A DNA stretch of 64,000 nucleotides from an uncultured Prevotella sp. (lineage in GTDB: Bacteria; Bacteroidota; Bacteroidia; Bacteroidales; Bacteroidaceae): contig CALUEY010000009.1 in the NCBI GenBank assembly GCA_944319915.1, positions 16,322 through 80,321 of the forward strand, given 5' to 3'. This document shows, piece by piece, positions 4,798 to 33,585 of this stretch; position 1 is the first letter of the stretch; the number at the start of each line of letters is the position of its first letter. The translations under genes were made by a program, and so were the position numbers. The notes below the pieces were generated by a model. That model did no database searches and was not told where the DNA came from. It saw nothing but the letters and a program-made list of their open reading frames with translations.

Positions 4798-4936
4798 CCC
4801 ACGTTCTGGCGGGTTTGCAACCCGCCAGCTCCCGTGGCCGGGTCTGTGACCCGGGGAGGCAAAGAAAACAAAGCACAGCGCGGGTTGCAAACCCGCAACA
4901 GGATGCAGGCTGGTTGCAAACCAGCCTGAACGTGGG
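4798..4936 (+). repeat. Full-length 139-bp four-hairpin REPIN-like element, copy 1
   Basis: The element is bounded by inverted ends CCCACGTT (4798-4805) and AACGTGGG (4929-4936). Inside are four hairpins in order. The first has arms CTGGCGGGTT/AACCCGCCAG (4806-4828). The second has arms CCGGGTC/GACCCGG (4838-4854). The third has arms GCGGGTT/AACCCGC (4880-4896). The fourth has arms CAGGCTGGTT/AACCAGCCTG (ending 4928). All have 3-nt loops. A spacer rich in AAAG separates hairpins two and three. Confidence 0.88.
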
Positions 4937-4999
4937 AGTCATCGTGGGAGTCATCGTGGGAATCATCGTGGGAATCATCGTGGAAGTTAACGTGGGTGA

Positions 5000-5056
5000 G
5001 CGGGTTGCAAACCCGCAATAGGATGCAGGCTGGTTGCAAACCAGCCTGAACGTGGG
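5000..5056 (+). repeat. Half element (hairpins 3 and 4)
   Basis: A 57-bp copy of the right half of the 139-bp element, with arms GCGGGTT/AACCCGC and CAGGCTGGTT/AACCAGCCTG and the end AACGTGGG. It is embedded in 12-bp satellites. Confidence 0.85.
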
Positions 5057-5122: not shown

Positions 5123-5179
5123 GCGGGTTGAAAACCCGCAATAGGATGCAGGCTGGTTGCAAACCAGCCTGAACGTGGG
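5123..5179 (+). repeat. Half element (hairpins 3 and 4), variant
   Basis: A right-half copy with one loop substitution in the first hairpin (GAA in place of GCA). It is followed immediately by a partial repeat of the last arm and end (AAACCAGCCTGAACGTGGG), which points to local slippage or unequal recombination. Confidence 0.82.
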
Positions 5180-5280: not shown

Positions 5281-5457
5281 AACGTGGGTGGGCGTGGGGC
5301 GGGTATGTGTGTGGAGCTTGGCAGGCCTTGCTGTTGCTTGCAAATATGCAACTAACTGGCGGCTTAGCATTGGCCGTTTTGCGGGCGGTTGCGCCTTGGC
5401 TTGCGATATGTGCTGTTTGGGCTTGCGATATGTGCTGTTTGGCAGGGCGGAACGGCG
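5281..5457 (+). repeat. Duplicated intergenic module, copy 1
   Basis: This block recurs at 5945-6140. It contains the 19-mer CTTGCAAATATGCAACTAA at 5337-5355, a GCCGTTTTGCGGGCGG stretch, and two tandem units of a 22-bp repeat containing GCTTGCGATATGTGCTG (units begin at 5399 and 5421). No coding potential is supported. Confidence 0.85.
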
Positions 5458-5494
5458 TCTTTCCCAGTGTGGGTGAGCGGGTTTCCACGTTTCT

Positions 5495-5633
5495 CCCACG
5501 TTCTGGCGGGTTTGCAACCCGCCAGCTCCCGTGGCCGGGTCTGTGACCCGGGGAAGCAAAGAAAACAAAGCACAGCGCGGGTTGCAAACCCGCAACAGGA
5601 TGCAGGCTGGTTGCAAACCAGCCTGAACGTGGG
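5495..5633 (+). repeat. Full-length 139-bp four-hairpin REPIN-like element, copy 2
   Basis: It has the same length, end sequences (CCCACGTT at 5495-5502, AACGTGGG at 5626-5633) and internal order of four hairpins as copy 1. It differs from copy 1 at very few positions. It is preceded by a stretch that also precedes copy 1 (GTGGGTGAGCGGGTTTCCACG). Confidence 0.88.
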
Positions 5634-5684: not shown

Positions 5685-5741
5685 GCGGGTTGCAAACCCG
5701 CAACAGGATGCAGGCTGGTTGCAAACCAGCCTGAACGTGGG
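5685..5741 (+). repeat. Half element (hairpins 3 and 4)
   Basis: A right-half copy identical in layout to that at 5000-5056. It is flanked by GTGGAAGTTAAC-type satellites on the left and a GGGAGGGCAGC segment on the right. Confidence 0.85.
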
Positions 5742-5819
5742 GGAGGGCAGCGTGGAAGTCAGCGTGGGAGTCATCGTGGGAGTCATCGTGGGAATCAGCG
5801 TGGAAGTTAACGTGGGTGA

Positions 5820-5876
5820 GCGGGTTGCAAACCCGCAACAGGATGCAGGCTGGTTGCAAACCAGCCTGAACGTGGG
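5820..5876 (+). repeat. Half element (hairpins 3 and 4)
   Basis: A further right-half copy, 135 bp after the previous one. The two copies and their intervening satellites form a higher-order tandem repeat. Confidence 0.85.
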
Positions 5877-5944
5877 GGAGGGCAGCGTGGAAGTCAGCGT
5901 GGGGGTCAGCGTGGGAGTCATCGTGGGAGTCATCGTGGAAGTTA

Positions 5945-6140
5945 ACGTGGGTGAGCGTGGGGCGGGTATGTGTGGAGCTTGGCAGGCCTTGCTGTTGCTT
6001 GCAAATATGCAACTAACTGGCGGCTTAGCATTGGCCGTTTTGCGGGCGGTTGCGCCTTGGCTTGCGATATGTGCTGTTTGGGCTTGCGATATGTGCTGTT
6101 TGGGCTTGCGATATGTGCTGTTTGGCAGGGCGGAACGGCG
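5945..6140 (+). repeat. Duplicated intergenic module, copy 2
   Basis: The second copy of the 5281-5457 block. It has three rather than two tandem 22-bp units (beginning at 6060, 6082 and 6104), so the unit number differs between copies. The 19-mer CTTGCAAATATGCAACTAA is at 5998-6016. Confidence 0.85.
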
Positions 6141-6391
6141 CCTTTCGCAATGCGTTGGGAATCAGTTGGTTGCGATGGAAGACCGGTCCTGTTCCCGTTA
6201 ACTTAATTATGTTAAGTAGAATGTAAAATGTTAATTGCCACCAAATTGTGCGCCATTTAGGAGATGCAGGCCAAAGCCCGACGAGAGAGTGTAGCGGGCT
6301 GCACGACCAATGACCGGTCGTTAGGGAGACAATCACACAACGACCGATTTTGCGTAAACGCCCCGGCGGGGCGGGCGGCCACACAAAAAAA

Positions 6392-6442: not shown

Positions 6443-9400
6443 TTACTTCACCACAACCTTCTTGCCGCCAACGATGTAGAGGCCCTTGGCCAGGCCGTCG
6501 AGCGACTCGCCTGCCTTGCGTACCATTACGCCGTTGATGGTGTAAACGTTGTTGTCTGCGCGCTTCACGTCGGCGTTCACCTCGTTGATGCCAACGCTAA
6601 TCAGGTCGGCGTCGCCCACCTCGATGAGGTAGATGTGGCAGCCGCTGGTAGAGCTTACGAGCACGTCAACAGGCTCTGTGCCAAGATCCGTCGGGATGGT
6701 CCACTCGTAAGACTGCTTGCCGTCAGACGGCGTTGCGTCCTCGCCCACCTTGGTGCCGTTTACGCTCAGGCTTACGCCGCGGGCGTTGCCGTCCTTGTGA
6801 GACTCAACCTCCATGAGAATCTTCTGTCCGGGCATTACGGTCGGGATGGTGAACTGCAGGTCGGTGCCGTTGAGCCAGATGTAAGAGCCGCCGTCGTAGT
6901 CGCTGAGTGCGTGCGGATAGTCGATGGCTATTGCCACGGTGTTGTTCAGCTTCGTGATGTTGTTGAACTTCAAGCCCTTGGTCTCGGCTATGGTCACGCC
7001 GTTGGCCTTAAGCTCTGTAGGCTCGCTGATGTAGCTGCCGTACCAGTAGATGGTGCCTGCGTCCTTCAGGCCATCGGTCTCGGTCCACTCGGCTCCGTCC
7101 TTCTCGTAGCGGCGCCAGCCGGTCTCTGTGCCTTCGGGTGCGGGAGCCTCGGTGTAGCCATTGGCCTGGAACTCGGCCTCAAGGTTGTCCTTCGTCTCCT
7201 GGCTCCAAGCGGTGAAGTCCCACTTGCGGTACTCCTGCGGCTCGCTCGCGGTAACGGTGAACTTCACGCCGTGCAGTGCCACGTCGGCACCCTCGCCGGT
7301 GGCGTTTATGCCGGTGTAGTCAACGGCATACTGCTTCGTCGGGTCGAGCGTCAGCGTTACCACGGCCGTGTTGGGCTCGCTGGTAGCCTGGCCAATGACG
7401 GCCTCGCTACCGTCGGTAGGCGTTGCCGTTACAACGAGTGTGCGCGGGTCGCTGCTTTTGCCGGTAACTCCATAAGCTGTAAGCTCGTCGATGCCGGTGA
7501 CGTAGGTTACGAACGACTTGGCAGCGTTGCCCTTCTTCAGGCCAACGCCCGGGAAGTTCTGCGGCTCAACGGTCTCGCCCGTGGCCGGGTCGATTGTACC
7601 CTTCTTGTTGTCTGTGTAGTTGCCGCCGTGTTCAACCCATCCTTCAGCCACTGCTGCAGTCACGTTCTCAGCTGTTGGCAGGAACACCTCGCTCTTGGTG
7701 AACGTCTTGTAAACCTGCTCGGGCTCGGGCTCGGGCTCGGGCTCGGTGTAGCTCAGCGGCCAGAACTCGAAGTTGCCAACGTAGACATTATAGTAGATTA
7801 CGCCGGTGAGGTCTACGGCCTCCGTGGGAACTTCGGCCAGCTTCTGGAACTTGTCTACCATGGCTACCTGGGCCGGTATCTGGGCCTCGGGCTGTGTCAC
7901 GGTGTAGCCGGTGGCGGCGTCGCCGGAGATGACGGCGCCAGCGTACTTCACGAGCTTCAGCGAGTTCTCCTCAACCATCGACTCGGCCACGCTCATCTCC
8001 GTAGGCATAACCTCGGCTGCTGCTGAGGTGACGATAGAGCTGGCTGTCTTGTCGTTGGCGCTCAGGCTGATGTCGCCGTCGGTGTTGGCGAGGGTGGCGG
8101 TGAGCGAGCCGTTGAGGGCTATGCCGCTGCCGGTGAACACGGTGCTCAGGGCATCGGCCACGTCGGCGCTGATGGCCACGGCGCCGGTGGCGTCCTCAAC
8201 GATGATGGTGCGCTCGCCCTCGTCGGCCAGCGGGTCGGGCTCGCCGCCTTCGCCGCCCTCATCCTCGCCGGATGCGGCCACGGTCTCGTCTACGGTAACC
8301 TTGGCGTTGGTGAGCGTCAGCTCAACGGCTATGTTGCCGGGCATGTCGCGCAGGGCGGCAATGTTGGCCGCCTTCTCGGGCTGCACGTTGGCTGGTTCAA
8401 TGATATCCTCGGCACTAACCGGGTAAATCTCCTGTGTGACGCCATCAGATCCGCCAATGGCCAGCAAGCTGCCTATCTCGGAGGGATACTCGTACTCATC
8501 GGGCAGAACGTTGAAGTAGTCGTCAATCCATATCGTTGTGCCGCCGAACATCAGCCAATTGCCACTAACCGACATTGAGCCTACGAGCTTTATGAGGCGG
8601 TTGGTGTACATCATGCCGTTCAGGCCCTGAACGGTGGCCAGCGTCGGAGTGACTGTGGTTTCCTCAGAGGTGAACTTAGAGGTGGCCGTCTGGGCGTTGG
8701 AGCCTAACGATGGGATGCTGCCTCCAGTGTATGTGGCGTAGAGGTTGCCTTTGAGGGCGGTGCCTGCGGTGAGGCTGAGGCCTATGTTATTGAGCTTTAT
8801 GGCTCCGGTCTCGTCCTCGATGAAGGCCATGTTGTCCTTGACGAACGTTACCACTGCCCCGTTGAGCTTCAGGTTTACGTTGGTGCCGGTGGCTATGCCC
8901 TTGAGCGCGCCGATGTTTTCCACGTCGGTGGCAGGCTCCACGTAGTCGCCCACGGTGATGCCAGTGATCTCAGTGTCGAATGCGCCGTTGGTGAATGTCA
9001 CCTCTTCCTCGTCGCCAGTCCAAATCTTGCCATTGAGCGTGCCTTGTTGGGCCTTGATGCTGAAATTGCTTGATGAGGTGAACACAACGCGGTTGATGCG
9101 CTTGCCGTCCTTGCCTTTAATGACTAAGTTGCAGCCGGCTGCTTCTATGCCTATGTACTTCTTGCCGTTAAACTCGCGGTATGATACATTGCCGGTGAAA
9201 GTTGCGGTGAATTCGTCTGCCTCGAGCATGAGCGTGTTTTTAACGATTGAGCTTCCGCTGAGGGTGTCTATCGTGGCGAAGTCCAGCTTGCCCACGGCGT
9301 ACTCTACTGGCTCAGCAGCCTTGGGAGAGTAAATCTCAACCTTGGTGAGCATGTCGGAGAAGCGGTAGAGAGCATACTGCTGGTCGCCCGGCAGCACTGT

Positions 9401-11295: not shown

Positions 11296-11361
11296 CATTA
11301 TTTCTTAACCATATCTATATTTTCTCCCACGTTAAGTTTCACGTTCTCATCCACGTTTGCA

Positions 11362-11500
11362 CCCACGTTCTGGCGGGTTTGTAACCCGCCAGCATCCTGT
11401 TGCGGGTTTGCAACCCGCGCTGTGCTTTGTTTTCTTTGCTTCCCCGGGTCAGAGACCCGGCCACAGTCGCTGGCGGGTTACAAACCCGCCAGAACGTGGG
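11362..11500 (-). repeat. Full-length 139-bp four-hairpin element beside the RAYT gene, copy 3
   Basis: Read on the minus strand, it has the same order as the copies at 4798 and 5495: end CCCACGTT, hairpin CTGGCGGGTT/AACCCGCCAG, hairpin CCGGGTC/GACCCGG, AAAG-rich spacer, hairpin GCGGGTT/AACCCGC, fourth hairpin, end AACGTGGG. The fourth hairpin has arms CTGGCGGGTT/AACCCGCCAG instead of CAGGCTGGTT/AACCAGCCTG, so both arms differ in a paired way. Length is again exactly 139 bp. The 12-bp-period satellites extend on both sides (about 11325-11361 and 11501-11578). Confidence 0.88.
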
Positions 11501-11588
11501 TGAGAACGTGTGTGAGAACGTGGGAGAAGACGTGGGAGATGGCGTGAAACTTAACGTGTGTGAGAACGTGGGAGTTGCTACGTCCTGA

Positions 11589-11628
11589 CGTGTTTGCATC
11601 CACGGAAGCTTCCGCGGATGCAAACACG
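11589..11628. repeat. Long hairpin next to the RAYT stop codon
   Basis: CGTGTTTGCATCC at 11589-11601 pairs with GGATGCAAACACG at 11616-11628, and the centre is the perfect palindrome CGGAAGCTTCCG. This gives a nearly continuous stem of about 19 bp. It could be the transposase gene terminator or a structure recognised by the transposase. Confidence 0.75.
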
Positions 11629-11706
11629 TTTATACCCACGTTTTGGCGAGGTTGCACCCACGTTCCTCTGCAACGTGTGAATCTGCCGCACGTGAGAGAG
11701 AGTCTT

Positions 11707-12243
11707 TCACGTGATGATGGTGACGTCCAACAGCCCTTTGCCTCCTGCGTAGTCGATGGCAGAGCTGTAGAGATAGTGTTCTGGTTGTGCCACTATGGCT
11801 TGTTTTACGGGGTTGTTGTGGATGTAGTTCAGTTTTTGCAGGTAAAAGTCACGTGAATGCAACAGTTCGGGGTGGTAGCCCTGCTGCCATAGGCAGAAGC
11901 TTCCGGGTTCCTTGCGGTTCGCTCCGGCAAAGCCGAATCTGCGGAGCATCCATTCGCTGCGGCTCTCTTGTTGGTTGTTGGCAATTTCGGTAAGCAGTCT
12001 CTTTGCGGTGAACTTCTTGAAGTCGCGCATGATGTCGGCCAAGGTGCAGTTTTGCGTTGCGCTTGCGATTATGTGCAGGTGGTTCGTCATGAGAACCCAT
12101 GCATACACTTTCAATCCTTTGTTGCGTTGGCAGTATCTGAGTGAGTCAACCACGATGTCCTTGTATGCTGGTCTTGTGAAAACATCAATCCAGTCGGTGA
12201 CTGTCGTAGTGATGAAATATGTTTCGTCTGTGATTATGTGCAT
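11707..12243 (-). CDS. REP-associated tyrosine transposase (RAYT, Y1_Tnp/HUH family)
   Basis: The 178-residue protein has the HUH metal-binding motif H55-L-H57 in VLMTNHLHII. It also has the family-typical segment KLNYIHNNPVK with candidate nucleophile Y140, near the end as in IS200/IS605-like single-strand transposases of the RAYT branch. These enzymes cut at the foot of hairpins in single-stranded DNA and are linked to REP/REPIN elements rather than moving themselves as an IS. Here four-hairpin elements lie on both sides of the gene (11362-11500 and 12335-12391), and no IS ends of its own were seen. The frame is complete and both motifs are intact, so the protein is probably functional. Confidence 0.9.
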   Translation of the reverse strand: MHIITDETYFITTTVTDWIDVFTRPAYKDIVVDSLRYCQRNKGLKVYAWVLMTNHLHIIASATQNCTLADIMRDFKKFTAKRLLTEIANNQQESRSEWMLRRFGFAGANRKEPGSFCLWQQGYHPELLHSRDFYLQKLNYIHNNPVKQAIVAQPEHYLYSSAIDYAGGKGLLDVTIIT

Positions 12244-12334
12244 AGTGCCTTATGCTTAATAATAATGATGTTTGTATTATGTTGTTCTCCATCAGCTCAC
12301 AGGCTTAGGCGTTAGCTTGGCTTTTGTATTCTTC

Positions 12335-12391
12335 CCGGGTCGGAGACCCGGCCACAGTGGCTGGCGGGTTGCAAGCCCGCCAGAACGTGGG
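12335..12391 (-). repeat. Left-half hairpin element upstream of the RAYT gene
   Basis: Read on the minus strand it has end CCCACGTT, a hairpin with arms CTGGCGGG/CCCGCCAG (12361-12383) and a hairpin CCGGGTC/GACCCGG (12335-12351). This is the left half of the 139-bp unit. From 12386 the plus strand continues into 12-bp-period repeats (GTGGGAGAGAGC, GTGTGAGTTGTC and variants) to about 12433. Confidence 0.85.
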
Positions 12392-12459
12392 AGAGAGCGT
12401 GTGAGTTGTCGTGTGGGCTTTCGTGTGAGTTAACTTTCTTAATCCTTAATTCTTAACTC

Positions 12460-14259
12460 TTAATTTTTAGTTCCCAGCGGGCTGCAGACTTCGGCGAGCC
12501 ATGCCCGCTCATCGTGGGAGAGGAGAGGTGCGAGGCTGCTGAATACCGTGGCGTGGTAAGAGTTGAGCCAGGCAAGCTCGTCGGCGGTGAGCATGGAGGC
12601 GATGATTGGAGCCTTGTCGATGGGGCAGAGCGTGAGCGGCTCGAAGGCCAGGAAGCGGCCAAACTCGGTCTCCGAGTGCGGAACAATGAGCAGGGTGTTC
12701 TCGGTGCGCACGCCGAAGCGGCCTTCAAGATATATTCCCGGCTCGTCGGTCACGGTCATGCCGGGCAGCAGCGGCGCGGGGCGCCACTCCATGCGTATCT
12801 GGTGAGGCCCCTCGTGAACGTTGAGGAACGAGCCCACGCCGTGGCCCGTGCCGTGCAGGTAGTTAAGACCCTCGCGCCACAGCGGTTCGCGGGCCAGCGC
12901 GTCGACCTGCGTGCCGCTGGCCCCGCAGGGGAACACGGCGCGCTCCAGGGCTATGTGGGCCTTGAGCACGAGCGTATAGACGCGCCGCTCCTCGTCGCTC
13001 ACGGGGCCGAGGGCGATGGTGCGGGTGATGTCGGTGGTGCCGTCGAGATACTGTCCGCCGGTGTCCACGAGCAGCAGCCCCTCGGGTTTCAGTGGCGCGT
13101 TGGTGGCAGGCGACGGCTCATAGTGAACTATGGCGGCGTGGTCGGCGTAGGCGGCAATGGTGTCGAACGAGGGGCCTCGGTACAGTTCCTGCCCGGCGCG
13201 CAGGCTCTCTATCATGGCCGCCGCGCTCATTTCCGTCTGCCCGCCCCGCTCCACGGCAGGCCGCAGCCAGCGCATGAAGCGCACCATGGCCACACCGTCG
13301 CGCAGCATGGCGCGGCGGAAGCCCTCAATCTCCGTCGTGTTCTTCACCGCCTTCATGGCCTCCACCGGCGACGGTGCGTCTACAACCTCGGCCCGCCGCA
13401 CACATTTATATAATGTATGGCAGGTAGTGGCGGAATCCATCAGTATGTTGTATTCGGAGTAAGATGTGAGCGCCGAGGCGATGGCGGAGTAAGGCGCGCA
13501 GTCTACGCCTATGCCTTTGAGGTAAGCCTGCACCCCGGGGCGGAGCTTGGCGGGGTTGGCAAAGAGCGTGGTGCGGCGCCCCTCCAGCAGCAGGTAGGCA
13601 AGGAACACAGGGTTGCAGTGTACGTCGGAGCCTCGCAGGTTGAGCGTCCAGGCGATGTCGTCGAGCGACGACATGAGCATCCCGCCCGCGCGCATGGCCT
13701 TGAGCCGCTCGCGTATGCGCCTTAGCTTCGATGCAGCAGGCTCGCCGGCAAGCTCCTCGGGGTAGACCTCTATGGGCGCCGTGGGCAGCGGCGGGCGGTC
13801 GGCCCAGATACGGTCGAGCACGTCGAGGTTGGTGCGCAGGGTGATGCCGCCCTGGCGGTGCAGCCCGGCGGCAAGGGCCTCCACATAGGCCGCAGGGGCG
13901 GACATACCGTCGATGGCAGCCTCTGTGCCTCCCGTGGCAGCCAGCTTGCGCCCTATCCATTCGCCCACGGTGGGCGTGCCGCCGATGCCCTGGCGCATGA
14001 GGGCGAACTCAGTGCCGCGCAGGGCCTCGGCGGCGGCGATGAAGTAGCGCGAGTCGGTCCACAGGGCGGCGGCATCCATGGTTACCACCGCCGTGCCGGC
14101 CGAGCCATCGAAGCCGCTTATCCACTCGCGCCCCTTCCAGTGGTCGGGTACGTACTCCCCGCAGTGGGGGTCGGTGCTTGGCAAGATGAACGCATCTATG
14201 CGCTCGCGCCTCATTTCCTCGCGCAGCGAGTCAAGGCGTTGCTGAATGTAGTCTTTCAT
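12460..14259 (-). CDS. pepP: Xaa-Pro aminopeptidase (M24B, aminopeptidase P family)
   Basis: Removes the N-terminal residue from peptides with proline in second place; cytosolic and metal-dependent. The start at 14259 (MKDYIQQ) is preferred over a frame extending 17 codons upstream, giving 599 residues, usual for the long three-domain form. Two creatinase-like N-terminal domains occupy about residues 1-310, and the pita-bread catalytic domain follows. The five metal ligands are visible: D399, D410 (in TTDITRT), H473 (in GTGHGVG), E506 (in DEPGIY) and E520 (in VRTEN). It stands alone between the RAYT region and the divergently transcribed mdh. Confidence 0.93.
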   Translation of the reverse strand: MKDYIQQRLDSLREEMRRERIDAFILPSTDPHCGEYVPDHWKGREWISGFDGSAGTAVVTMDAAALWTDSRYFIAAAEALRGTEFALMRQGIGGTPTVGEWIGRKLAATGGTEAAIDGMSAPAAYVEALAAGLHRQGGITLRTNLDVLDRIWADRPPLPTAPIEVYPEELAGEPAASKLRRIRERLKAMRAGGMLMSSLDDIAWTLNLRGSDVHCNPVFLAYLLLEGRRTTLFANPAKLRPGVQAYLKGIGVDCAPYSAIASALTSYSEYNILMDSATTCHTLYKCVRRAEVVDAPSPVEAMKAVKNTTEIEGFRRAMLRDGVAMVRFMRWLRPAVERGGQTEMSAAAMIESLRAGQELYRGPSFDTIAAYADHAAIVHYEPSPATNAPLKPEGLLLVDTGGQYLDGTTDITRTIALGPVSDEERRVYTLVLKAHIALERAVFPCGASGTQVDALAREPLWREGLNYLHGTGHGVGSFLNVHEGPHQIRMEWRPAPLLPGMTVTDEPGIYLEGRFGVRTENTLLIVPHSETEFGRFLAFEPLTLCPIDKAPIIASMLTADELAWLNSYHATVFSSLAPLLSHDERAWLAEVCSPLGTKN

Positions 14260-33509: not shown

Positions 33510-33585
33510 GGGCCGTTTCGCCTTGCCAAACGGCCCGTTTTGGCCTCCCGAACGGCCCGTTTGGCAAGGCCAAACGGGCCTTTTT
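33510..33585 (+). repeat. Tandem GGCCGTTT hairpins, possibly a terminator
   Basis: Two hairpins share arm sequence: GGGCCGTTT/AAACGGCCC (33510-33536) and GGCCCGTTTGG/CCAAACGGGCC (33554-33580). The second is followed by TTTTT, so it could end the propeller transcript. Related sequence occurs at 47568-47650 and, more weakly, in the duplicated module near 5.4 and 6.1 kb. Confidence 0.75.

Follow-up and report, generated by a model that had tools for sequence, protein, structure and literature searches.

A RAYT gene flanked by multi-hairpin elements

The window, the whole 64-kb (64,000-nucleotide) stretch of DNA from an uncultured Prevotella sp. analysed here, carries at 11707..12243 of its reverse strand a gene for a REP-associated tyrosine transposase (RAYT, TnpA-REP) of 178 aa. 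The product matched the NCBIfam model NF047646 (REP-associated tyrosine transposase) with 109.8 bits against a cut-off of 80 and Pfam Y1_Tnp with 36.6 bits, and a four-row profile of relatives reached E. coli TnpArep (PDB 4er8; E = 2.4e-6), with the match confined to the tyrosine region. An IS200 transposase model gave 25 bits, under its cut-off of 55. The catalytic motifs comprise HLH at residues 55–57 and Tyr140 within YIHNNP. A preliminary description of this DNA had proposed an intact Y1/HUH transposase with H55-L-H57 and a candidate Y140, which the open reading frame, the family models and the motifs bear out. The window RAYT is the sole NF047646 match in its genome (2.63 Mb in 45 contigs, estimated to be 89.8% complete). 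In the available text of PMC6006769, subclass 2.6, equivalent to Bertels group 5, is characterized by the motifs NH[LIV]H, WQ and YIH[QN]NP, a median length of 179 aa and a mostly Bacteroidetes distribution. The predicted protein fits this subclass, with NHLH, WQ, YIHNNP and its 178 aa matching the corresponding row. The same text describes the flanks of subclass 2.6 genes as ‘atypical secondary structures’ that are weaker, are without GT[AG]G and recur at other places in the genome. The window gene likewise has atypical hairpins on its flanks, and these too have genomic copies.

Three complete units, putative REPINs of 139 bp each, lie at 4798..4936 and 5495..5633 on the forward strand and at 11362..11500 on the reverse strand, the last being reversed relative to the other two and 3’ of the RAYT. 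Each has the layout CCCACGTT-HP1-HP2-centre-HP3-HP4-AACGTGGG with four perfect hairpins of 3-nt loop and stem lengths of 10, 7, 7 and 10, and their positions, ends and hairpins are those originally reported. The half element previously placed at 12335..12391 was also located there; it is a 57-bp tag-HP1-HP2 unit on the RAYT strand (reverse), about 90 bp 5’ of the RAYT start, and its outer hairpin is imperfect with one mismatch. On the 3’ side of the gene, a degenerate remnant read from the sequence (11635..11664, forward) consists of a tag, a hairpin 5’ arm and another tag. Absent from the preliminary description were four further halves, all on the forward strand, in which HP3-HP4 is present four extra times (5000..5056, ending in AACGTGGG; 5123..5179; 5685..5741; 5820..5876), and arrays of a 12-nt CGTGG tag that flank the units. 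These arrays occupy 4931..4998 (from periodicity) and 5737..5960 (between and after halves), as well as 11493..11575 between the third unit and the RAYT and, in inverted form (CCACG), 11325..11361 to the left of that unit, the latter two being read from the sequence and from the flank test described below; all coordinates are given on the forward strand.

The window contains 12 hairpins with a stem of at least 8 and a loop of 3, against 0 to 3 in each of ten dinucleotide shuffles. The complete units account for six of the 12 and the further halves for four, with two elsewhere. The 58-nt arms of the four-hairpin unit are 76% complementary, HP1-HP2 and HP3-HP4 forming inverted halves.

Several other features were seen in the window. 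Isolated 3-nt-loop hairpins at 33554–33580 and 8616–8634 do not belong to the RAYT-repeat family. A 178-bp direct repeat (5308–5485 and 5969–6146) is 88% identical, and a near-perfect palindrome of about 40 nt (ACGTGTTTGCATCC...GGATGCAAACACGT) lies at about 11587–11629, between the tag array and the RAYT. A TTAATTCTTAACTCTTAATTTT-like stretch at 12430–12476 has matches at many places in genomes of the genus.

Copies in the genome of origin and in a close relative

A BLAST search of the window’s own genome with the first unit returned 92 matches, including reverse self-matches and halves. Near-full copies, in which 136 or more of the query’s 156 bases are covered, numbered 23, of which 18 showed at least 80% identity to the query and five showed 70–75%. 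A further copy lacked part of HP1, and others were halves or copies with a longer centre. Dispersed inverted-pair copies, as in canonical REPIN/RAYT systems, are therefore present in this genome, and halves also occur alone. Among 19 units whose length was measured, 17 were 136–139 bp and two were 126 and 166 bp; the proposed exact length of 139 bp thus holds for the window copies and is not fixed genome-wide. A search of Rfam gave one match (E = 0.082), far below the gathering score. An ORF listing did not settle whether the copies lie inside or outside genes, as several reading frames are open through the repeats.

The word TTCGGGATAAG was observed immediately beyond the tag arrays that flank three units in the same genome (L007 1459; L012 1456 and 1684; L017 1665). 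Since it is shared, and stands on both sides in L012, some copies may have a longer common flank. Words resembling AAACGGCCTGTTT are numerous in several unit flanks and look like a second intergenic repeat family.

The close relative G089 is 89–94% identical to the source genome over long flanking stretches. Its RAYT has the same neighbouring gene in another setting: a complete unit lies upstream of it, and there are tag arrays to either side. Fourteen loci of the source genome were compared with G089, 12 of them being near-full units, one a unit whose centre is longer and one a locus with halves. The comparison gave a verdict for seven and none for L008, L011, L012, L015, L016, L024 and L030. 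Six of the seven carry a unit at the corresponding site (L013, where its length has changed, L014, L017, L018, L025 and L026), and at L007 the flanks align, the unit is absent and there is no clean join. With six sites filled and one without a unit, the unit sets of the two genomes differ. No clean empty site was found and no target duplication was established among these 14 loci. In G089 a dispersed family distinct from the units, about 170 bp long and near CATTTAACCCAAATCGGTCGTTAG, also gave over ten matches of 79–92% identity.

Paired hairpins flank many RAYT genes across Bacteroidota

Relatives of the RAYT were collected by scanning named genomes with the four-row alignment, and the best 80 of 403 loci were used, 78 of them being usable for flanks. 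Nearly all of these best 80 carry Bacteroidota names (one is labelled Chlorobiota), among them Segatella copri, Bacteroides xylanisolvens, Paludibacter, Pontibacter, Rufibacter and Adhaeribacter, a taxonomic reach that is partly set by the search because the query came from this clade. The earlier label of a Bacteroidales version is too narrow, as the reach extends to Cytophagales and others.

Strong hairpins, defined as a stem of at least 8 and a loop of 3 within 300 bp of the RAYT, were present upstream in 53, downstream in 58 and on both sides in 45 of the 78 loci, against 0.7, 0.4 and 0.02 after shuffling; they were absent upstream in 25 loci and downstream in 20. At a distance of 2.5 kb, the corresponding counts were 1, 1 and 0 of 44 loci, against 28, 33 and 25 near the gene in the same 44. 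The loop was TGC or TGT in 50 of 69 upstream hairpins and GCA or ACA in 58 of 93 downstream hairpins. This prevalence of TGY loops upstream and RCA loops downstream indicates that the two sides of the RAYT are mainly inverted, although loop orientation is a majority rule and in this respect counts against the explanation preferred below. The RAYT is thus flanked by inverted REPs as in canonical systems, with the downstream half degenerate in the window.

A second hairpin was found 5–15 nt inside the first at 42 loci upstream, 42 downstream and 28 on both sides of the 78, with none in ten shuffles; second hairpins outside the first numbered four upstream and two downstream. The centres of the two hairpins of a pair are spaced by 29–30 nt in four of the five families measured: successive spacings are 29-42-29 for the window, 29-41-29 for G089 and 29-45-29 for Adhaeribacter soli, and G116 has 30. 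S. copri deviates with 45–49 nt throughout. In Adhaeribacter soli (L141) the RAYT sits between HP2 and HP3, and gene-less units come after it. The preliminary description had suggested a fused pair of REPINs. Because the arms of the unit are 76% complementary, halves occur alone and other RAYT genes are enclosed by halves of this kind, the unit is better described as one REPIN whose halves are two-hairpin REPs.

Hairpin tip and 5’ foot

The tip of the outer hairpin is conserved as GGRTT-TGY-AAYCC. In 79 distinct stems, the five loop-proximal pairs are largely fixed (64 to 79 of 79 identical), and each of pairs 6 to 10 from the loop occurs as all four Watson-Crick types. As these hairpins were selected as perfect, their pairing is not independent evidence, which comes instead from their excess over shuffles.

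From the 80 loci, 147 distinct hairpins were oriented and the three bases at their 5’ foot compared. These bases are G (0.81), C/T (0.95) and C/T (0.92), most often reading GTT (65) or GCT (42). The G-Y-Y foot is exact in 116 of the 147 and present in 136 when a one-base shift is allowed. At the foot, GT[AG]G occurred within 6 nt in a single hairpin. By genome, exact GYY was found in 32 of 35 hairpins of the source genome, 27 of 30 in G089, 8 of 9 in G116, 8 of 12 in G049 and 3 of 6 in G192. S. copri, with 4 of 20 and its wider spacing, fits the model poorly. As defined from these hairpins, a REP reads from 5’ to 3’ as a tag, GTT, a 10-bp hairpin with TGC or TGT in its loop, a stretch of about 9 to 13 nt and a second hairpin, which is shorter. 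The predicted REPIN consists of two such double-hairpin REPs in inverted orientation.

A tree of the 80 RAYTs was built by a quick method, and the foot was scored on 49 of its rows (33 GTT and 16 GCT), leaving unlabelled 17 loci with other majority feet and the loci without such hairpins. The two foot types required two changes on the tree, against 13.6 for shuffled labels, and none of 500 shuffles was as low. At the level of sequence, foot type follows the RAYT tree, near-copies among the rows being of a kind that favours such clustering. Among the 22 RAYT alignment columns that best separate GTT from GCT, no residue tracked the switches.

Tag arrays

Flanks of about 100 nt were taken on both sides of the 19 measured units, some of these 38 flanks coming from neighbouring units and hence being non-independent. 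CGTGG occurred 108 times in them, up to 38 of which are the units’ own ends, against a mean of 5.7 and a maximum of 13 in letter shuffles. Arrays of this kind, together with the extra halves, may be products of ordinary slippage around hairpins in which the RAYT has no part, an explanation we consider evenly balanced and one that is compatible with the units being REPINs. It agrees with the periodicity, 37 of 70 successive CGTGG spacings being 12 nt, and with the HP3-HP4 array of the window not being seen at the matching place in G089. Against slippage without the RAYT stands the identity of the repeated word, as the 12-mer includes the foot (CCCACGTT on the hairpin strand). Over the 80 loci with duplicates kept, the foot hexamer recurs within 60 nt of 30 of 158 hairpins, against 2.5 expected, with other words and other periods. 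Either RAYT action or slippage could have made the arrays.

Truncated copies were also seen, in which a tag, the 5’ arm of the outer hairpin and the loop stand head to tail with another tag (L117, L144, L114, L033, L041, L009, L228 and L233), the junction often following TTTGCAA or TTTGCAACC. A precise junction after TTTGYAA was rejected as a rule for these half-hairpins: five locus sets gave 20, 10, 8, 1 and 1 distinct cases, and junctions are mixed. Templating of the arms, scored as left and right flanks matching locus by locus, gave a mean same-locus score of 13.5 over 15 loci that 965 of 20 000 permutations equalled or exceeded. The score is owed largely to L012, and the idea was dropped.

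Hairpin copy number and RAYT presence

A subclass 2.6 RAYT or a fragment of one was detected in 13 of 200 genomes of the genus, nine of which look full length. In two genomes it lies in pieces on separate contigs (G028 on C5, C31 and C34; G155 on C85 and C291), as broken genes or through assembly breaks at repeats. The hairpin pattern GRRTTTGYAAYYC had a median count of 14 in the 13 genomes with a RAYT and of 2 in the 187 without (p = 2.8e-7, or 1.0e-6 with the source genome left out, kinship being ignored in both); read backwards, the pattern gave 0 to 4 per genome. The proposal that copy number follows RAYT presence is upheld in part, in that seven of the 13 genomes with a RAYT have at least ten hairpins against 12 of the 187 without. 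The two highest counts, however, belong to genomes in which no RAYT was detected (G177 with 200 and G049 with 143), followed by G086 with 99 and G116 with 53, which counts against a strict link between RAYT and repeat. Conversely, four genomes with a full-length RAYT have just 4 to 8 hairpins (G007, G067, G074 and G198). Units in G049 and G116 have the same paired-hairpin layout with mostly GTT feet, and several contigs of G049 start or end in these repeats. In such genomes the gene may have been lost, or a repeat-flanked gene may have been lost in assembly, both being possible.

High copy numbers without a detected RAYT would be expected if the hairpins were resident intergenic signals, such as terminators, mRNA ends or topology sites, and the RAYT a neighbour or a relic that no longer moves them. 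The divergence among the near-full copies and the filled state of six of the seven judgeable sites in G089 also agree with this. Resident signals would not, however, explain why hairpins are concentrated beside RAYT genes rather than 2.5 kb from them, why they flank the gene in pairs on both sides or why the foot tracks the RAYT tree, and we regard this explanation as improbable. Still more remote is an origin of the unit as a MITE, derived from some unrelated insertion sequence that has CCCACGTT as its terminal repeats. Such an origin would account for terminal inverted repeats around a body without a gene, but between genomes just the GTT beside the hairpin is kept and the association is with the RAYT.

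A probable REPIN with a G-Y-Y foot

The unit of about 138 bp is probably a REPIN that belongs to a RAYT of subclass 2.6 (group 5), working through a single-stranded DNA hairpin and its 5’ foot. That the locus is a REPIN/RAYT system, as first proposed, is supported by the family model, by copy number and by the association across Bacteroidota. The unit would become single-stranded, for example on the lagging-strand template, and the RAYT would read the hairpin tip and the G-Y-Y foot on that strand. Tyr140 would cut beside the foot and the RAYT would rejoin the strand, with copying or movement of the unit in trans as the outcome. The available text of PMC8266576 describes how the guide of a group 3 member selects the cut, namely through complementarity between position 4 of the guide and position 3 or 2. 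If this rule is extrapolated, cleavage is predicted at A|A or A|C with a GTT foot and at A|G or A|C with a GCT foot; AAC is the foot of the inverted partner REP. On this view the CGTGG arrays would consist of repeated feet, arising from slippage or from repeated cutting and joining.

A more far-reaching reading, which we put forward tentatively and think somewhat unlikely in full, is that subclass 2.6 RAYTs form a distinct phylum-wide single-strand mobile system. Its basic element would be tag-HP1-HP2-RAYT-HP3-HP4-tag, as at L141 of A. soli, with the four-hairpin REPIN as the gene-less form; the G-Y-Y foot would pick the cut in the foot of the partner, and repeated cutting and joining would write the tag arrays.

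A defined substrate (hairpin tip, G-Y-Y foot and double hairpin) makes cleavage assays possible, and rewriting of the foot would allow the guide model to be tested outside Proteobacteria. The REPIN reading also explains a visible class of repeats in gut bacteria of the Prevotella group.

Comparison with known systems

IS200/IS605 elements such as IS608 use a Y1 HUH enzyme and a hairpin with a 5’ guide. The window system shares this enzyme type and logic and differs in that its hairpins are inverted and its transposase scores below the IS200 model cut-off.

Canonical REPIN/RAYT systems, in the available texts of PMC3116915, PMC2817692 and PMC8266576, comprise an inverted REP pair, a RAYT flanked by inverted REPs, a foot 5’ of the hairpin and coevolution with the RAYT, and the segments modelled in PMC3116915 are 71 bp and 110 bp. 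The present family resembles them in its inverted REP pair, its flanked RAYT-type HUH transposase, its 5’ foot and its coevolution with the RAYT. It differs from these descriptions in having GYY rather than GT[AG]G as foot, two hairpins rather than one per REP and a unit of about 138 bp; since both GT[AG]G and a single hairpin were looked for and not found, the unit is not a canonical REPIN. TIRYT/TIRtron elements, as far as described in the available text of PMC3733652, are RAYT-like genes with inverted repeats; some of these contain self-complementary tracts and are found as copies in the genome, and some share GGGGWSAS. By description they resemble the present family in a RAYT-like gene within inverted, doubly palindromic repeats, and overlap between the two is possible.

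No paper describing the four-hairpin unit was found in a literature search judged by titles, abstracts and partial texts. The closest likeness is to subclass 2.6 as given in the available text of PMC6006769, in motifs, in a length of about 179 aa, in a Bacteroidetes distribution and in flanking secondary structures with genomic copies. Beyond that text, in which the structures are ‘atypical’ and weaker and no unit is described, go the double hairpin, the GYY foot, the inverted four-hairpin unit and the tag arrays; some of the hairpins may already stand in its Additional file 2, Table S1. Within a widespread family of transposases, group 5 RAYTs make up a branch found mainly in Bacteroidota, and the same text leaves their substrate undescribed; the unit defined here would fill in this poorly described branch of a known bacterial mobile-repeat family.
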